A stretch of DNA of 40,660 bases from Thiotrichaceae bacterium. GTDB taxonomy: Bacteria > Pseudomonadota > Gammaproteobacteria > Beggiatoales > Beggiatoaceae. The DNA is taken from assembly GCA_016745055.1 (NCBI GenBank), contig JADGDF010000019.1:1-40660 (forward strand), written 5' to 3'. The position numbers and the translations under genes are program-made. Within the stretch, counting starts at the first letter, position 1. Each line of letters begins with the position of its first letter. The notes under the pieces are model-generated. The model ran no database searches, had not been told where the DNA came from, and was given only the letters and a program-made list of their open reading frames with translations. This document shows positions 8,751 to 35,453 of this stretch, piece by piece.

Positions 8751-9824
8751 TTATTCTACATTGATCATTTCGATATTTGAGTAGGCACTCCAACAATTCC
8801 CTTGATAACCACGAATCGAAATATAGTAGGCATCCCCTTTGTTTAAATTAGCAGTAAACTGGGTTTGATCCCCCATATATATACTATGGATATGATCAAA
8901 CTTGATATCTTCGATAGTGGGTACGTAAGGTGTGTAATAAAGCTGGTAGCCTTCAACGTTTTCTACTACGTTCCAGGTAACGTTTACTTTATCGTTTTCT
9001 ATGTTTACCTGAATATTTGGTTGTGAAAGCGGAGGCATATCTTGACACACATGTTCTTTAATAAAACTTTCAAATGAGGAAACACGAGTATATACACCAT
9101 AATAGTTAGGTAATGCACAGCCTTCTCCAAAGCTGATAATGCCAGCTTGTTCCCAATCAGTACCATTCCAAACAATCAATGGACCGCCACTATCGCCCAC
9201 ACAGGCATCTATTTCACCCTTTTCATAACCTGCACAGAACATTCTTTCATCGACATCTCCTTTATAAGGTTGATTGCAAACTTCGCTAGAAATAATAGGT
9301 ACGGATGCCTTTAGCAATACAGAAGAAAACGAACCATGAATATTTTTAGGATTTGTTGTACCCCAACCTGTAACAACACCTGTTTGAGAGGGGGCATCTA
9401 AATCTGTATAACTAGCGGCAATACGTATAATTTCTTGATCATGATAAGGTGCTTTTAATTTTAACAAAGCAATATCTGCGGTAGGTGCGTCAGGATCTCC
9501 ATCATATTCCGGATGAACAATTATTTCAGCAATGCCAAACCGTGTTCCTTCCTCGCTTTCTAAATCATAATGCCCCATAAAAACATCAATTGAAGTGATA
9601 GATTCACCCAAAGTACAGTGTGCTGCAGTTAATACCCATTCTGGGTGAATCAGTGTCCCACCACAAACTTGTCCACTCTTTGGCGATACGTTCACTTCAA
9701 TAAGCGCAACCATCCAAGGAAAATTAGCAGGTCTACCGCCAATAATACGTGTTTTAGCAAAGGTATATGTGTGGAATAAGAATGTTAGGAGGCTGATGAC
9801 TAAACCATATTTAAAAAATTTCAT
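8751..9824 (-). CDS. secreted trypsin-like serine protease (S1A) with C-terminal Fn3-like domain
   Basis: 357 residues. Signal peptide 1-23 (ends TFA), very short propeptide, then R26-IIGG, the classic activation site of chymotrypsin-fold zymogens. Catalytic triad His69 (TAAHC), Asp117 (ADIAL) and Ser212 (GDSGGP). Asp206, six residues before the serine, is the trypsin S1-pocket aspartate, so cleavage after Lys/Arg is expected. Six cysteines in the protease part fit three disulfides. Residues about 268-357 resemble a fibronectin type III module, possibly for binding a polymer or surface. The ATG overlaps the hslR stop codon (ATGA) and has its own strong AGGAGG, so the two are cotranscribed. 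Export would be by Sec, perhaps then type II secretion. Confidence 0.93.
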   Translation of the reverse strand: MKFFKYGLVISLLTFLFHTYTFAKTRIIGGRPANFPWMVALIEVNVSPKSGQVCGGTLIHPEWVLTAAHCTLGESITSIDVFMGHYDLESEEGTRFGIAEIIVHPEYDGDPDAPTADIALLKLKAPYHDQEIIRIAASYTDLDAPSQTGVVTGWGTTNPKNIHGSFSSVLLKASVPIISSEVCNQPYKGDVDERMFCAGYEKGEIDACVGDSGGPLIVWNGTDWEQAGIISFGEGCALPNYYGVYTRVSSFESFIKEHVCQDMPPLSQPNIQVNIENDKVNVTWNVVENVEGYQLYYTPYVPTIEDIKFDHIHSIYMGDQTQFTANLNKGDAYYISIRGYQGNCWSAYSNIEMINVE

Positions 9825-17611: not shown

Positions 17612-17841
17612 AATATTAAATAATTTAGTGATTAAAAATCTAAGGTATTTTACGTGTTGGTATTATAAAGTGGTGCTACCTGGTTTATGCACCTTACGAG
17701 TTAGCATGAATTTCTGCTCAAAGTGCTCTTGCTATAAAAAATTACTTATGTTAGCTTTACTCACTGTAGAATATACACTGGTATACGAGGTATATATTCT
17801 TACACAAAACAGTAAACAACCTAACTTTTAGGAGTATTGAT
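17612..17841. promoter_or_regulatory. divergent promoter region of xthA and the graspetide cluster
   Basis: 230 bp between two divergent starts. At 17769-17799 an imperfect palindrome has arms GAATATA and TATATTC; it lies 43 bases before the precursor ATG, so it could be an operator or overlap a promoter. Several AT-rich hexamers could serve as -10 elements, but I cannot single out a -35/-10 pair. A clean AGGAG lies seven bases before the precursor start. Confidence 0.35.
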
Positions 17842-17994
17842 ATGCTTACCGATATGCAATCCAACACTCAAGCTGAAACAGTTCCTTTTTTTGCTCGTTT
17901 CTTAGAAAGCCAAAAATCTGCAAAATCAACACAGGAACTCAATGCAGCCGCTCCTGTAACCTACAAATACCCTTCTGATGATGAAGACTATTAG
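17842..17994 (+). CDS. mdnA: microviridin-type graspetide precursor peptide
   Basis: 50 residues with AGGAG at ideal spacing. Residues 15-22 are PFFARFLE, the conserved leader helix that docks on microviridin ATP-grasp ligases. The last 11 residues are TYKYPSDDEDY, matching the microviridin core TxKYPSDxE(D/E)(Y/W). By analogy, Thr40-Asp46 and Ser45-Glu48 would form the two lactones and Lys42-Asp49 the lactam, giving a tricyclic cage. The residue in the x position of TxK, Tyr41, sets protease selectivity in known members and predicts a chymotrypsin-like target. Position 47 is Asp instead of the common Trp, adding an extra acidic residue. The leader/core cut is not marked by a double glycine; APV precedes the Thr. 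It is followed by both ligases and an exporter. Confidence 0.93.
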   Translation: MLTDMQSNTQAETVPFFARFLESQKSAKSTQELNAAAPVTYKYPSDDEDY

Positions 17995-18026: not shown

Positions 18027-18098
18027 TAGGTTCTGTTGGTATTTTATGATATAGCTTATTAAGCTATAAGGAGTTGTGTTAAATAGTAACAGAACCTA
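18027..18098. repeat. 72-bp TA-flanked palindromic element between precursor and ligase
   Basis: 20-nt arms at 18027-18046 and 18079-18098 are inverted copies with 17 of 20 matches, including the perfect outer 11 bp TAGGTTCTGTT. Inside is a second hairpin, TATAGCTTA/TAAGCTATA (18050-18058/18060-18068). Both ends carry TA. It could be a tiny transposon-derived unit. As RNA it would put a stable structure 33 bases after the precursor stop, which could protect the precursor mRNA or reduce read-through into the ligase genes. There is no U-run, so it is not a standard terminator. Confidence 0.65.
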
Positions 18099-18207: not shown

Positions 18208-19185
18208 ATGCATTTATCCCGCAACGTTATTTTATTAGTCACACATAGTGGTGATTTTTTCACCATTGATCGAGTAAGCGATGCTTTATCAAACAAAGGG
18301 GCTAATCCTTTTCGTCTGGATACCGATAAATTTCCATTAGACATTCAGTTTAGTTCACAGTTTTCTGGCCAAGGTCACAGTTATATTCTCCACTACGGTA
18401 GTGAATCTATCAGTTCGGAATCAGTGCGTGCTGTTTGGATGCGTCGTTTGTGGAAGCCTGATCTGGGACAGAGTTTATCTCCACAGTATCAAGAAGCTTG
18501 TATTCGTGAATCCAAAGCGACGTTATCAGGATTTTGGGATAGTTTGAGAAATGTCCGTTGGATAGATAATTTAGAACGTGTAGACTTTGCTCAAAATAAA
18601 CAGCGTCAACTACGTGTTGCATCTGAAGTGGGCCTGACAATTCCTCGTACATTAATTACTAATAACCCAGAATCTGTACGCAAATTTTTCCAACAATTAC
18701 AGGGAAAAATGGTTACGAAGCTTTTAACCGCACTCTCTTACAGTATGGAATATTCTTCTTTTTCCTTTTATACCAGTGCGGTTAAAGAAGAAGATTTGCA
18801 AATGGCTGACTCACTACGTTATTGTCCCATGGTATTTCAAGAAGAAATTCCTAAACAATTAGAATTACGAGTGGTATTTGTTCAAGGCAAAGTCTTTGTG
18901 GGTGCATTGGATGTATCTGCTTACACGGCATCTAAAACAGATTGGCGTAAACCAGATGTTGCAGTGGGCGCATGGCAACATCACGATTTACCAAGTGAAC
19001 TTATCGAAAAAATTCAAACCTTTATGACTCAATTTGGGCTACTTTTTGGAGCCTTCGACTTTATTCTTACCCCTTCTGGAGAATATATTTTTTTAGAAGT
19101 GAATCCCGCAGGCGAATGGGGCATGTTGGAACGTGATCTCAATTTGCCAATTTCTGAAGCAATTGCAGAAGCTTTAATTGCTTAG
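18208..19185 (+). CDS. mdnB: ATP-grasp peptide ligase, MdnB/MvdC type (lactam-forming)
   Basis: 325 residues. Matches the MdnB branch of graspetide ligases closely: LLVTHSGDFFTIDRV, FRLDTDKFPL, VWMRRLWKP, ACIRESKATL, FWDSL, VGLTIPRTLITNNP, MVFQEEIPKQLELRVV, WQHHDLP. The ATP/Mg site is in the C-terminal ATP-grasp half, with Asp284 (GAFDF), Glu297 and Asn299 (FLEVNPAGEWG). By homology it activates the side-chain carboxylate of the precursor as acyl phosphate and joins it to the core lysine, closing the lactam after both lactones. The gene starts 213 bases after the precursor and lacks an obvious ribosome binding site, so expression may be lower than that of the precursor. It is followed by a short hairpin (TACTTTG/CAAAGTA) and the second ligase. 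Confidence 0.93.
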   Translation: MHLSRNVILLVTHSGDFFTIDRVSDALSNKGANPFRLDTDKFPLDIQFSSQFSGQGHSYILHYGSESISSESVRAVWMRRLWKPDLGQSLSPQYQEACIRESKATLSGFWDSLRNVRWIDNLERVDFAQNKQRQLRVASEVGLTIPRTLITNNPESVRKFFQQLQGKMVTKLLTALSYSMEYSSFSFYTSAVKEEDLQMADSLRYCPMVFQEEIPKQLELRVVFVQGKVFVGALDVSAYTASKTDWRKPDVAVGAWQHHDLPSELIEKIQTFMTQFGLLFGAFDFILTPSGEYIFLEVNPAGEWGMLERDLNLPISEAIAEALIA

Positions 19186-19300: not shown

Positions 19301-20284
19301 ATGACAGTACTCATTGTAACGTTTAGCCAAGATAATGAAAGTATTTCCTTGGTCACTCAAGCGATTGAAGCTAAAGGTGGCAACGCATTTCGTTTTGATA
19401 CAGACCGATTTCCTACTGAAGTGTTACTGGATATTGGCCAAGGAAATGATGAGTGTGTCATCATCTCAGACGGTGACCAACAACTTAATTTAAATGATGT
19501 TTCTGCGGTGTGGTATCGGCGGGCGCGTTATGGTAAAAAAATTCCTGACACGATGGAACAACAACATAGAGAAGCTTCTATTAAGGAAACGCGAGTCACC
19601 ATTAGAGGAATGCTTGCCAGCGTCCAAGGGTTCCATTTTGATAATATATTTGATGTCGAACGAGCTAATAATAAGCAATTGCAATTGCAAGTGGCACGGG
19701 AAGTGGGTTTAACTACACCACGCACATTAAGTACAAATAATCCTGAAGCAGTCAAGCAATTTGCTGATAAATGCAAAGCACAAGGTATCATTGCCAAAAT
19801 GCTTTCTTCATTTGCAATTTATGGAGAGCAAGGTGAAGAACAAGTTGTTTTTACCAATCCTGTGACTGACGAAGATTTAGCAAATCTTGAGGGTTTACGC
19901 TTTTGTCCCACGACTTTTCAAGAAAAAATCCCCAAAGCATTAGAATTACGCACCACGATTGTTGGCCAGCAAATATTTACTGCTGCTGTCGATTCACAAA
20001 GTTTGAAACAGTCTACTTACGATTGGAGAAAGGAAGGAGCAGCTCTCGTCAAATCTTGGCAACCTTATGATTTACCAAAAGAGGTTGAAAGCAAATTGCT
20101 TCAATTAATGGCTTATTTTCATTTAAACTACGGTGCAATTGATATTATTGTCACACCCGACGGACGTTATGTCTTTCTTGAAATAAACCCCGTAGGTGAG
20201 TTTTTTTGGATGGAATTGTATTCCCCTTACTTTCCAATTTCACAAGCAATTGCAGAGATGCTACTTGTACAAAGCAAGAAATAG
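19301..20284 (+). CDS. mdnC: ATP-grasp peptide ligase, MdnC/MvdD type (lactone-forming)
   Basis: 327 residues. It matches the MdnC branch from the first residues: MTVLIVTFSQDNESI, FRFDTDRFPTE, VSAVWYRR, NNKQLQLQVAREVGL, KMLSSFAIYGEQ, FCPTTFQEKIPKALELRTTI, WQPYDLP, LNYGAIDIIVTPDGRYVFLE. Metal-binding residues are Asp281, Glu294 and Asn296 (LEINPVGEFFW). By homology it forms the two omega-ester bonds (Thr-Asp, then Ser-Glu) on the leader-bound precursor before the lactam ligase acts. It lies 115 bases after mdnB; no strong ribosome binding site is visible. The exporter starts 26 bases after its stop. Only about a third of residues agree with mdnB by eye, so the two are ancient paralogues, not a recent duplication. 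Confidence 0.94.
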   Translation: MTVLIVTFSQDNESISLVTQAIEAKGGNAFRFDTDRFPTEVLLDIGQGNDECVIISDGDQQLNLNDVSAVWYRRARYGKKIPDTMEQQHREASIKETRVTIRGMLASVQGFHFDNIFDVERANNKQLQLQVAREVGLTTPRTLSTNNPEAVKQFADKCKAQGIIAKMLSSFAIYGEQGEEQVVFTNPVTDEDLANLEGLRFCPTTFQEKIPKALELRTTIVGQQIFTAAVDSQSLKQSTYDWRKEGAALVKSWQPYDLPKEVESKLLQLMAYFHLNYGAIDIIVTPDGRYVFLEINPVGEFFWMELYSPYFPISQAIAEMLLVQSKK

Positions 20285-20310: not shown

Positions 20311-22392
20311 ATGGCCCAACCTAATAAAAATCAACATTCTAATGTTGTTCACCTTTCTGGAATTGCGGTAGGCAGCGCCTTATTTGGCACACCCCTTGCT
20401 GTGGCGCTTGTTGCAAACTATGCGAGCGTTTCTCTAACAGGCCAAAATTTATTAACTAATCTGTTCAAAACACGTAAAAAAAACAAATTATCAAAAAGAC
20501 AGGAACTATATCAAAAATATCAACAGAAAAAGACACTCTCAAAAAATAAAACAGTTGATGCTAACACTGAAAAAACTGAACCTCAATTTATAAAAAATGT
20601 TGAACTCTTCAAACTAATCTCATCGCTAGAAACATCGCAACAAAGGCATTTACGTTATAGAGCGATGGCTTATTCTTCTTTAACGACAACGACCACGCTT
20701 ATTACCCACATTTCAATAGGACTAATTGCTGTGGCAGTCATTTCTGGTGGGCTACCAATACTCACACAGTGGGGAATCAAAAGTGTATTCGTACAAATAG
20801 GCGCTTTAAGTGGTGTGGCCTTAACCTCAATGGCAGGAGAGTCTTTTACCCGTTATCAAAGCACTCGACAATGGAAAAATTATGCGACAGAGATTGAACA
20901 TGAATTACGTGTAAAAGCTTATGATCATGTCCAATGTTTGGATATGGTAGAATTGGAAAAACATAGCAGTGGGGAATTAGCTAATTTAATTCATTTTAAC
21001 CCGGTAAAAGTCAGATTATTTTTAGAAATGATACCTCAACGTATCATTGACAGAACTTTAAATTTACTACTTGGTGCCTTATTTTTGTTATTCTTTATTC
21101 CCATTTCTCTAGCGCTGGCTTTAACAGCGTTACTTTTACCTTATTTTTTACTTCGGCATTTTCATCATAAAATTGCCTCTCAATACCAACAATCAAGTCA
21201 AGCTGAAGCCAATGTTAATAAACAATTACTCAATAGCCTGGGAGGGCTACCCACGATAAAAAGTTTTACGACAGAAGCACATGAAGTTAAGTGTTTAGCA
21301 GAGCAAAGCAACGCGATGCGCGAACAACACGCCAATGTCACCAAGTTAGTTTCTCAAAGTATTGAACTCAGCCAGTTTTCCCTTTTCCCTGGTTTACTTG
21401 CACCTGTTGCTATAGGGGGAATTTTTGTATTAACAGGACAACTTTCTTTAACCGTTTTCATACTTCAAAACGCCATTTTACCTAAAGTAATGCAAGTGAT
21501 GATGCATTTAAGCAATGATTATCACTTTTATCGTAATGCTGACATTGCCTCTCAGGAATTGAATCAGCTCTTTAACCAACAATCCATTATTCATAATGGC
21601 ACAATTCATCTGCAAACGACACCAAATCAAGATCAAATATCATTCCAAAACATCTCTTTTTCATACAACGTTAATGAAAGAGTATTGAATAACATAAACT
21701 TGCATATTGATCCAGGAGAAACTATTGCCTTTGTTGGACCTACAGGGGCAGGAAAAACCACGATCACAAAATTGCTACTCCGTTTTTATGATATTCAAGC
21801 AGGCCAAATTTTGTTAAACGGTTATAATTTGCGTGATTTAGATATTTTAAGTTTACGTCAAGCGATAGGCTTAGTTAGCCAAGAGGTTTATTTATTTCCT
21901 GGTACTATTTATGAAAATATTTGCTATGGCACACCCAATAGTTCTGACGAAGCTGTGATGGAAGCTGCGCGTATTGCCGAAGTGAGTTCATTTGTGAGCA
22001 AATTACCCAATGGATTTGAGACGATTGTGGGAGAACGGGGACAAAAGTTATCTGGTGGACAACGACAACGCATTGCGATTGCCAGAGCATTACTCAGAAA
22101 TCCGCCTATTATGATCATGGATGAAGCAACGTCAGCTATAGATAATGAGACAGAAGCCGCTATTCAAAGAGCCATTGCTCGATTTTCTCAAGGACGGATT
22201 ACCATTATTATTGCACATCGTCTTTCTACTGTTCGCCATGTTGATTGCATTTACGTCATGAAACAAGGTCAAATTATTGAACAGGGAACGCATGATAATT
22301 TGCTAAAAGAACAAGGTTATTATGAGCAATTATGGAAGTTGCAAACAGGAGAAAACCAATTAGAGTTAGTAATTCCTACATTAAACGATTGA
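20311..22392 (+). CDS. mdnE: ABC exporter of the graspetide cluster, MdnE-like
   Basis: 693 residues from the ATG at 20311, chosen because GGAGGGTGAG abuts it; an in-frame ATG at 20206 lies inside mdnC and has no ribosome site. Residues 1-110 are an extension with one hydrophobic segment (17-41) and a Lys/Gln-rich linker. An exporter-type membrane domain (about 115-410) follows, then a nucleotide-binding domain: Walker A GPTGAGKT (476-483), Q-loop Gln524, signature LSGGQ (580-584), Walker B with Asp604-Glu605, His636 in IAHRLST. It is a half transporter and should work as a homodimer. There is no C39 peptidase domain, so leader removal needs another protease. Its place fits export of the cyclised peptide, and in cyanobacteria the transporter is also reported to support correct processing. 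Confidence 0.92.
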   Translation: MAQPNKNQHSNVVHLSGIAVGSALFGTPLAVALVANYASVSLTGQNLLTNLFKTRKKNKLSKRQELYQKYQQKKTLSKNKTVDANTEKTEPQFIKNVELFKLISSLETSQQRHLRYRAMAYSSLTTTTTLITHISIGLIAVAVISGGLPILTQWGIKSVFVQIGALSGVALTSMAGESFTRYQSTRQWKNYATEIEHELRVKAYDHVQCLDMVELEKHSSGELANLIHFNPVKVRLFLEMIPQRIIDRTLNLLLGALFLLFFIPISLALALTALLLPYFLLRHFHHKIASQYQQSSQAEANVNKQLLNSLGGLPTIKSFTTEAHEVKCLAEQSNAMREQHANVTKLVSQSIELSQFSLFPGLLAPVAIGGIFVLTGQLSLTVFILQNAILPKVMQVMMHLSNDYHFYRNADIASQELNQLFNQQSIIHNGTIHLQTTPNQDQISFQNISFSYNVNERVLNNINLHIDPGETIAFVGPTGAGKTTITKLLLRFYDIQAGQILLNGYNLRDLDILSLRQAIGLVSQEVYLFPGTIYENICYGTPNSSDEAVMEAARIAEVSSFVSKLPNGFETIVGERGQKLSGGQRQRIAIARALLRNPPIMIMDEATSAIDNETEAAIQRAIARFSQGRITIIIAHRLSTVRHVDCIYVMKQGQIIEQGTHDNLLKEQGYYEQLWKLQTGENQLELVIPTLND

Positions 22393-31553: not shown

Positions 31554-32483
31554 ATGAAGCTAAACTGGCATCGCCTTTTAGGGCTGGCACTGACTGACTA
31601 CTTTACTAATACCTGTTACAAAGTAGAGATGGAAGTTGATTTGTCCCTTCAACAACAGTTTTTGGATATCGTTATCATCAAACAAACCAAAGGAAAACCT
31701 CCTGAGGAATTACCTGACGGGTTTGAAAACTTATCCACTTATAATTTATTAACGTATAAATCTTTGAGGGAACCTTTAGATAGTTGGGCAATGAGTGAGT
31801 TGTTGGGACATTTTGTTAACTATCGTAAACAAATTAGCCCAGATAACAATAAGTTATTGCCTTTGGAACACTTTAACTTATATGCAGTCAGTACCCGTTA
31901 TCCTCGTAAATTGGAAGAAGAAATCACCTTAAAAAAACAACAAGATGGCTTATACTTAACGCAATGGGGCGCATTTACCATTGAAGTATTGGTCTTAACT
32001 GAAATGCCTATTGAAAAACAAAATGCTTTATGGCAACTTTTCAGTGGAGACAGAGACAAAGTGTTTTTTGGTAAGGAGCATTTTGCCTGGCATGAAGAAC
32101 AAACAAGTTCGGTCATTGACCAATTATTTGAACGTTATCAAGTGGAGGGAATATTTATGCCTTATACAATGGCTGATTTTCAAAGAGAATACAAGCAAGA
32201 GTTATTGCAGTCCTTAACGCCTGAAGAAATCTTTCGTCAGTTCAAACCAGAAGAGCGTCTGAAGGGATTAACGCCAGAAGAGCGTTTGCAGGGGCTTGGA
32301 CCAGAAGAGCGTTTGCAGGGGCTTGGGCCTGAAGAGCGTTTGCAGGGGCTTGAGCCAGAAGAGCGTTTGCAGGGGCTTGGGCCAGAAGAGCGTTTGCAGG
32401 GATTAACGCCTGAAGAAATTGAAGCGTATTTAGAGAAGTTAAAAAAATCTGGGTCAGAGGCGAATAATGGAGTGAAGCATTAG
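31554..32483 (+). CDS. PD-(D/E)XK nuclease-like protein with 9-residue tandem repeat tail
   Basis: 309 residues. The body matches a family of uncharacterised proteins related to Rpn/PD-(D/E)XK nucleases: WHRLLGLALTDYFT, VEMEVDLSLQQQFLDIVII, LSTYNLLTYKSLREPLD, HFVNYRKQISP, LYAVSTRYPRKL, IDQLFERYQVEGI, MPYTMADFQREY. The Glu/Asp in the early strand and the Lys in TYKS would be the core residues. Residues 221-292 are eight 9-residue repeats (consensus LGPEERLQG), encoded by 27-nt tandem repeats at 32214-32429. The repeat tail is probably helical and its copy number should vary between strains. Rpn relatives promote recombination in E. coli; the role here is unknown. No ribosome binding site is visible before the ATG. 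Confidence 0.78.
   Translation: MKLNWHRLLGLALTDYFTNTCYKVEMEVDLSLQQQFLDIVIIKQTKGKPPEELPDGFENLSTYNLLTYKSLREPLDSWAMSELLGHFVNYRKQISPDNNKLLPLEHFNLYAVSTRYPRKLEEEITLKKQQDGLYLTQWGAFTIEVLVLTEMPIEKQNALWQLFSGDRDKVFFGKEHFAWHEEQTSSVIDQLFERYQVEGIFMPYTMADFQREYKQELLQSLTPEEIFRQFKPEERLKGLTPEERLQGLGPEERLQGLGPEERLQGLEPEERLQGLGPEERLQGLTPEEIEAYLEKLKKSGSEANNGVKH
32214..32429 (+). repeat. 27-bp tandem repeat, eight units, coding
   Basis: Eight in-frame units of 27 bases; the middle ones are almost identical (around GAAGAGCGTTTGCAGGGGCT) and the outer ones diverge. Recent expansion by slippage or unequal crossing-over is likely in the middle units. Confidence 0.85.
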
Positions 32484-35041: not shown

Positions 35042-35453
35042 TTATATTTCTACCCAATTTTCTAGTTTTAAACCAGAAATACGAGAAAAATGACGTTGAT
35101 TATTCGTTACTAAAATAGCATCTAAACGAAGTGCATGAGCAGCAATTAGCATATCCATGTTACCAATCGGTAAACCTTTGCATTCTAAATCAGCACGTAA
35201 AATTGCATAATGTTGAGCTGTTTCCGCATCCCATGCAAAAACGCTTAATTTTAAATTAGTAATGAAAAAATCAATGTCATGTTGAGTAAAACTACTCGAA
35301 TTAAGGCGTTCAACACCATAACGCAATTCTGCTAAAGTCATGGAAGAAATACCAATCAGCGACCCTTCCATCCTTTGCAAATGTTGTAACACCGACAAAG
35401 GATGGCGTTTCATTATGTAACTGCTAATATCTGTGTCAAGTAATATAAGGCAT
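35042..35453 (-). pseudogene. vapC: VapC-like PIN-domain toxin, frameshifted at its start
   Basis: The long open frame from the ATG at 35413 starts MKRHPLSVLQHL, which lacks the first PIN strand. Upstream in the same frame is CLILLDTDISSYI, the true N-terminus with the first catalytic Asp (LLDTD), but no start codon there. An ATG at 35453 is one base out of frame: it reads ATGCCTTATA, and removing one C gives MLILLDTDISSYIMKRHP, a normal VapC of 136 residues. Other PIN acids are present: Glu in TLAELRYG, Asp in IGNMDMLIAAHA, and VTNNQRHF. So the toxin is either inactivated by a single-base insertion, started at a non-AUG codon, or the base is a sequence error. It would be an RNase of tRNA or other RNA. 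It follows its antitoxin directly. Confidence 0.75.

Follow-up and report, generated by a model that had tools for sequence, protein, structure and literature searches.

The window, by which we mean the whole stretch of 40,660 nucleotides analysed here, carries a small gene cluster in which a microviridin precursor, MvdC, MvdD and an ABC transporter follow one another in this order on the same strand (Table 1). Microviridins are cage-shaped protease inhibitors, best known from cyanobacteria. The genes of the cluster and the motifs of the precursor are read directly from the DNA.

Table 1. Features of the microviridin locus, with positions in the window
Feature	Position	Strand	Basis
Ribosome-binding site AGGAG	17830..17834	+	Sequence; 7 bases 5' of ATG
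Microviridin precursor gene, 50 aa, class I layout	17842..17994	+	NF033738, PF12559
Leader motif PFFARFL, ligase-binding helix	17884..17904	+	Translation; role from PMC7823629, PMC13039773
LESQ, matching the putative LEEQ/LAEQ leader-cleavage motif	17902..17913	+	Alignment with cyanobacterial precursors
Core TYKYPSDDEDY	17959..17991	+	Followed by TAG stop; fits published consensus
Strong intergenic hairpin between precursor and MvdC	18027..18098	+	Inverted repeat; arms 18027-18037 and 18088-18098
MvdC (MdnB-type), lactam-forming ATP-grasp ligase	18208..19185	+	TIGR04185; MdnB 5ig8
MvdD (MdnC-type), lactone-forming ATP-grasp ligase	19301..20284	+	TIGR04184; MdnC 5ig9
ABC transporter (MsbA/HlyB-like), presumed exporter	20311..22392	+	Pfam ABC_membrane, ABC_tran

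The precursor and its core

Translation of the precursor reading frame gives MLTDMQSNTQAETVPFFARFLESQKSAKSTQELNAAAPVTYKYPSDDEDY. This protein reaches 42.9 bits with the NCBIfam model for microviridin/marinostatin precursors (NF033738; cut-off 26, E 6e-11) and 35.2 bits, which is above the gathering score, with Pfam Inhibitor_I10 (PF12559). The NF033738 score and the neighbourhood of the two ligases put the frame far beyond chance. The leader carries an exact PFFARFL motif, and LESQ occupies the place equivalent to LEEQ/LAEQ, a putative cleavage site in the class I precursors of the Nostoc/Planktothrix group, for which the peptidase is encoded in trans (PMC13039773). A single core is present at the C-terminus and the precursor has no double-Gly motif.

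The published consensus of the microviridin core is TX1KYPSDX2(D/E)(E/D) (PMC5934393), and TYKYPSDDED agrees with it at every fixed position, with Tyr at X1 and Asp at X2. A preliminary description of this DNA had read Tyr at position 2, Asp at positions 8 and 10 and four acidic residues after Ser, all of which are confirmed by the translation. The core motif that it reported is indeed present, although the start that it gave (17955) is 4 bases upstream of the first codon of the core and out of frame with it.

Modifying enzymes, exporter and intergenic hairpin

Both ligases exceed the equivalog cut-offs of their families (MvdC, 501.5 bits against 425 for TIGR04185; MvdD, 537.5 bits against 475 for TIGR04184). 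MvdD aligns with MdnC (5ig9) without gaps over residues 1-322 and keeps Glu191, Asp192 and Asn195, the residues of MdnC that contact the leader (PMC7823629). The best solved match of MvdC is MdnB (5ig8), and this alignment is likewise ungapped. No C39 peptidase domain is recognised by Pfam in the ABC transporter, the cluster contains no leader peptidase, and no match to an MvdB-type GNAT acetyltransferase is present among the flanking frames scanned.

The intergenic hairpin consists of an outer stem of about 12 bp and an inner stem, with TA on its flanks, and has a folding energy of -32.9 kcal/mol (z -4.1; reached by 0 of 200 shuffles). It is terminator- or attenuator-like and could favour expression of the precursor over the ligases, or it could be a small MITE.

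Two other observations concern the remainder of the window. In the protein encoded at 31554-32483, a short unit (PEERLQGLGPEERLQGL...) is repeated several times within the C-terminal part, which suggests that it has expanded recently. A VapC-type (PIN) toxin-like gene at 35042-35413 scores just below the NCBIfam cut-off.

Comparison with known microviridins

The locus resembles those of the class I microviridins (A-K, N3-N9; MdnA/MvdE), which also have a single C-terminal core, the PFFARFL motif without a double-Gly motif, MvdC together with MvdD, a core of the type TxKYPSDxE(D/E) and a cluster without a leader peptidase. In contrast to these, where Trp (or Phe) is usual at X2 and the leader carries LEEQ or LAEQ, the precursor described here has Asp and LESQ. 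It further differs in its gammaproteobacterial host and in that no MvdB acetyltransferase was recognised among the flanking frames scanned; acetylation is lacking in microviridins N3-N9.

The closest MvdC and MvdD proteins are those of Symploca sp. SIO2E6 (L027) and Moorena sp. (L105), those of Symploca being 73-77% identical. PFFARFLESQ is common to the Symploca precursor and the one in the window, but the former has two cores where only one is present here. The X2 position is acidic or polar in these nearest relatives (THKYPSDEED in Symploca, TVKYPSDQED in Moorena); since it is the second Symploca core that has Glu at X2, a non-Trp, acidic residue at this position occurs in the nearest relative itself.

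Variability of the X2 position

The occurrence of Asp at X2 was assessed in samples of cores, which are no census and of which the two cyanobacterial ones overlap. The multi-phylum sample, collected with a degenerate core pattern that required acids at positions 7, 9 and 10, and with one genome per species, comprises at least 115 stretches with at least 207 valid cores. Among these at least 207 listed cores, X2 is Gly in 102, Ser in 35, Asn in 21, Ala in 10, Gln in 9 and Trp in 7, followed by His (6), Leu (4), Arg, Asp and Lys (3 each), Thr (2), and Glu and Ile (1 each). The 124 cores found in 389 genomes of one cyanobacterial order have Trp in 35 cases, Gly in 21, Ser in 13, Gln in 11 and Glu in 1, and none has Asp; among the matches listed for Nostocaceae, Asp is found in 0 of 111 cores and Glu in 1. 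Variability at X2 is thus a direct observation, and Trp at this position is typical only of the cyanobacterial class I compounds. The preliminary statement that known microviridins mostly have Trp here is correct for the isolated compounds of that class but not for genomic cores at large. Nor is the replacement of Trp by Asp as remarkable as it had been taken to be, because the consensus already leaves the position free (PMC5934393) and Trp accounts for only 7 of 207 listed multi-phylum and 35 of 124 cyanobacterial-order cores.

The three Asp-X2 cores among the listed multi-phylum matches come from a deltaproteobacterial MAG, Sinomicrobium and Nannocystis and all read SDDDE; a planctomycete core, TLKWPSDDDE, likewise has Asp at X2. 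The SDDDE cores (TMKYPSDDDE, L018; TLKYPSDDDE, L043; TKKYPSDDDE, L046; TLKWPSDDDE, L120) share this Asp with the core in the window. However, they have Asp instead of Glu at position 9, belong mostly to multi-core precursors and occur in other phyla with distant ligases. Another TYKYPSDDED, or any exact DDED core, is absent among the matches listed for the multi-phylum, cyanobacterial-order and Nostocaceae samples, and no exact TxKYPSDDED was found in viral contigs. From the X2 counts in the sampled cores, Asp at this position is rare (about 1-2%) yet precedented. A count of this kind had been proposed in the preliminary description.

Isolated compounds also differ at this position. Microviridin E has Phe where Trp is usual, and in microviridin L changes at positions 7, 9 and 11, the last being the Trp of X2, do not eliminate inhibition (PMC7823629). 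Since variation at the site of this Asp is nothing new, the core represents a minor, consensus-conforming variant of the canonical microviridin precursor.

Tyr at X1 and Asp at the lactam position

Tyr at X1 is not found among the listed multi-phylum cores; it is uncommon but present in cyanobacterial cores, where X2 is Trp, Phe, Leu or Gln (TYKYPSD[WFLQ]E). The exchange F5Y in microviridin L moves activity toward chymotrypsin (PMC7823629), in agreement with the earlier proposal that Tyr at the P1 residue (X1) directs the product to chymotrypsin-like enzymes. This engineered variant has Tyr at P1 as in the window, but it is a laboratory product with Trp at X2. A trypsin-like S1 protease, encoded some 8 kb away from the inhibitor genes (8751-9824, - strand), has Asp at position 189, as in a trypsin-type pocket; this protease would not be expected to be the target of an inhibitor with Tyr at P1.

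Asp at the lactam position had been listed as a further unusual feature. Microviridin E has long been known to carry Asp there, the SD compounds contain hydroxy-Asp at this place, and the consensus itself allows (E/D) at the last position (PMC5934393).

Proposed maturation and ring topology

From these similarities we infer the ring connectivity, leader cleavage, export and protease target of the product as follows. MvdD would bind the PFFARFL leader helix and form an ester between Thr1 and Asp7 and then a second one between Ser6 and Glu9, and MvdC would form the amide between Lys3 and Asp10. Removal of the leader would fall to an unlinked peptidase that cuts near LESQ, perhaps in combination with trimming, and export of the tricyclic product to the neighbouring ABC transporter. 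Tyr2 would enter the S1 pocket of the target serine protease, which would favour chymotrypsin-like enzymes. Asp8, at the free X2 position, would stay unlinked and add one negative charge, so that the product is predicted to have one free carboxylate more than a Trp congener, which is in line with the more acidic product suggested earlier.

The canonical links T1-D7, S6-E9 and K3-D10, with D8 as a free carboxylate, are the most likely pattern. This is the best prediction because the consensus acceptors are all present in register. The preliminary description had instead proposed Asp8 as an alternative acceptor, and it is conceivable that MvdD links Thr1 or Ser6 partly or wholly to Asp8, giving a shifted or mixed topology. 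The extra carboxylate does sit between the two lactone acceptors, and graspetide ligases have been termed catalytically versatile, with AMdnC presumably lactonising a deviating 'quasi core' (PMC5934393). However, TYKYPSDDED retains acceptors 7, 9 and 10 in register. In addition, alanine at the first acceptor Asp of AMdnA blocks lactonisation of that core despite the acids that remain in it (PMC5934393), which implies that these other acids did not take over. An acid at X2 together with the normal acceptors is also seen in THKYPSDEED of Symploca and in the SDDDE cores, although the search pattern itself demanded acids at positions 7, 9 and 10. Competition by Asp8 is accordingly quite unlikely. 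The stronger suggestion that Asp8 is a lactone acceptor in a shifted or mixed ring, and that a gammaproteobacterium has in this way redirected a pathway from cyanobacteria to a new target protease, is very unlikely.

We consider with high confidence that the locus encodes a class I microviridin precursor for which the canonical links are predicted, with Asp8 unlinked, and that the cluster probably stems from a cyanobacterium. Against this explanation count, as regards expression and maturation, the strong hairpin and the lack of a recognised leader peptidase or acetyltransferase in the cluster; further points are the absence, among the matches listed, of an exact DDED core for comparison and the low identity of the ABC transporter to that of the Symploca cluster.

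A second, interrupted leader

A second microviridin leader, MSTETQSNTQTTEGAPFFARFLES, is located on another contig (G000:C202:15045-15125; L006 7046-7125). It runs straight into a transposase, the contig ends, and the core is missing from the assembly. Across the genome, 48 places match the DNA of the transposase element beside it. The stretch AACTTTTAGGAG in the ribosome-binding region occurs upstream of both this leader and the precursor in the window. The interruption at the transposase and the contig end suggests that a second precursor was once present, or is still present across an assembly gap. A DNA search of the assembly for further KYPSD cores returned only two chance matches, both outside any precursor-like frame. 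A weak family match elsewhere (C318:845-907) was rejected as a precursor, because a kinase-like frame occupies the opposite strand there.

These observations raise the possibility that the cluster is decaying or silent, with one precursor broken by an insertion sequence and the core of the other drifting from Trp to Asp under relaxed selection, so that no functional inhibitor is made. The meeting of MSTETQSNTQTTEGAPFFARFLES with a multi-copy transposase, the lack of another KYPSD core in the assembly and the absence of Asp at X2 among the matches listed for the cyanobacterial samples are consistent with such decay. However, the precursor, both ligases and the transporter are intact open frames, the precursor and the ligases score well above the family cut-offs, and the core keeps all of its linking residues, with differences confined to free positions. 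Polar or acidic residues at X2 are also found in the nearest ligase relatives (Ser and Glu in Symploca, Gln in Moorena). Decay of the cluster is thus unlikely.

Origin of the cluster

The position of the ligases in the trees is established directly. MvdD falls in a clade of ten that is otherwise cyanobacterial and has 100/100 support, and MvdC in a clade (SH-aLRT 99) with Symploca, Moorena and G496, a genome of the cyanobacterial order sampled. MvdC and MvdD were found in none of the other genomes of the order to which the host belongs (42 genomes), and no microviridin precursor in other genomes of the class (369 genomes); among the papers searched, none reports microviridins in Beggiatoa. To judge by its relatives, the host is probably a Beggiatoa-like gammaproteobacterium. 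Genes for a Gram-negative ParC, RNase T and an Hsp15-like protein lie on either side of the cluster on the same 40 kb contig. The cyanobacterial nesting of the ligases, their absence from relatives of the order and the nature of the flanking genes together point to transfer from a cyanobacterium. We infer the direction of this transfer from the same evidence: the cluster was probably acquired by the gammaproteobacterium from a filamentous cyanobacterium. Whereas the ligases reach 73-77% identity to those of Symploca, the ABC transporter and its counterpart in the Symploca cluster share only 35%, and the exporter may have a separate origin or have been recruited separately.

The same ligase identities, and the lack of counterparts in other genomes of the order, would also be seen if this piece of the contig were cyanobacterial contamination and no transfer had occurred. 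This is extremely unlikely, as the ParC, RNase T and Hsp15-like genes surround the cluster on one 40 kb contig, a different contig carries the second leader next to an insertion sequence with many copies in this genome, and the contamination estimate for the assembly is 0.01. Nesting of the ligases, absence from the order and the second leader cut by an insertion sequence are more notable than the core itself.

The core is one more sequence in a family of which many members are known. In having Tyr at X1 it is a natural equivalent of the chymotrypsin inhibitor engineered by the F5Y exchange, and its product might be made more soluble by Asp at X2. If the transfer is real, a cyanobacterial protease-inhibitor cluster is present in a gammaproteobacterium, in 1 of 42 genomes of its order, and this would allow the role of such inhibitors outside cyanobacteria to be addressed.
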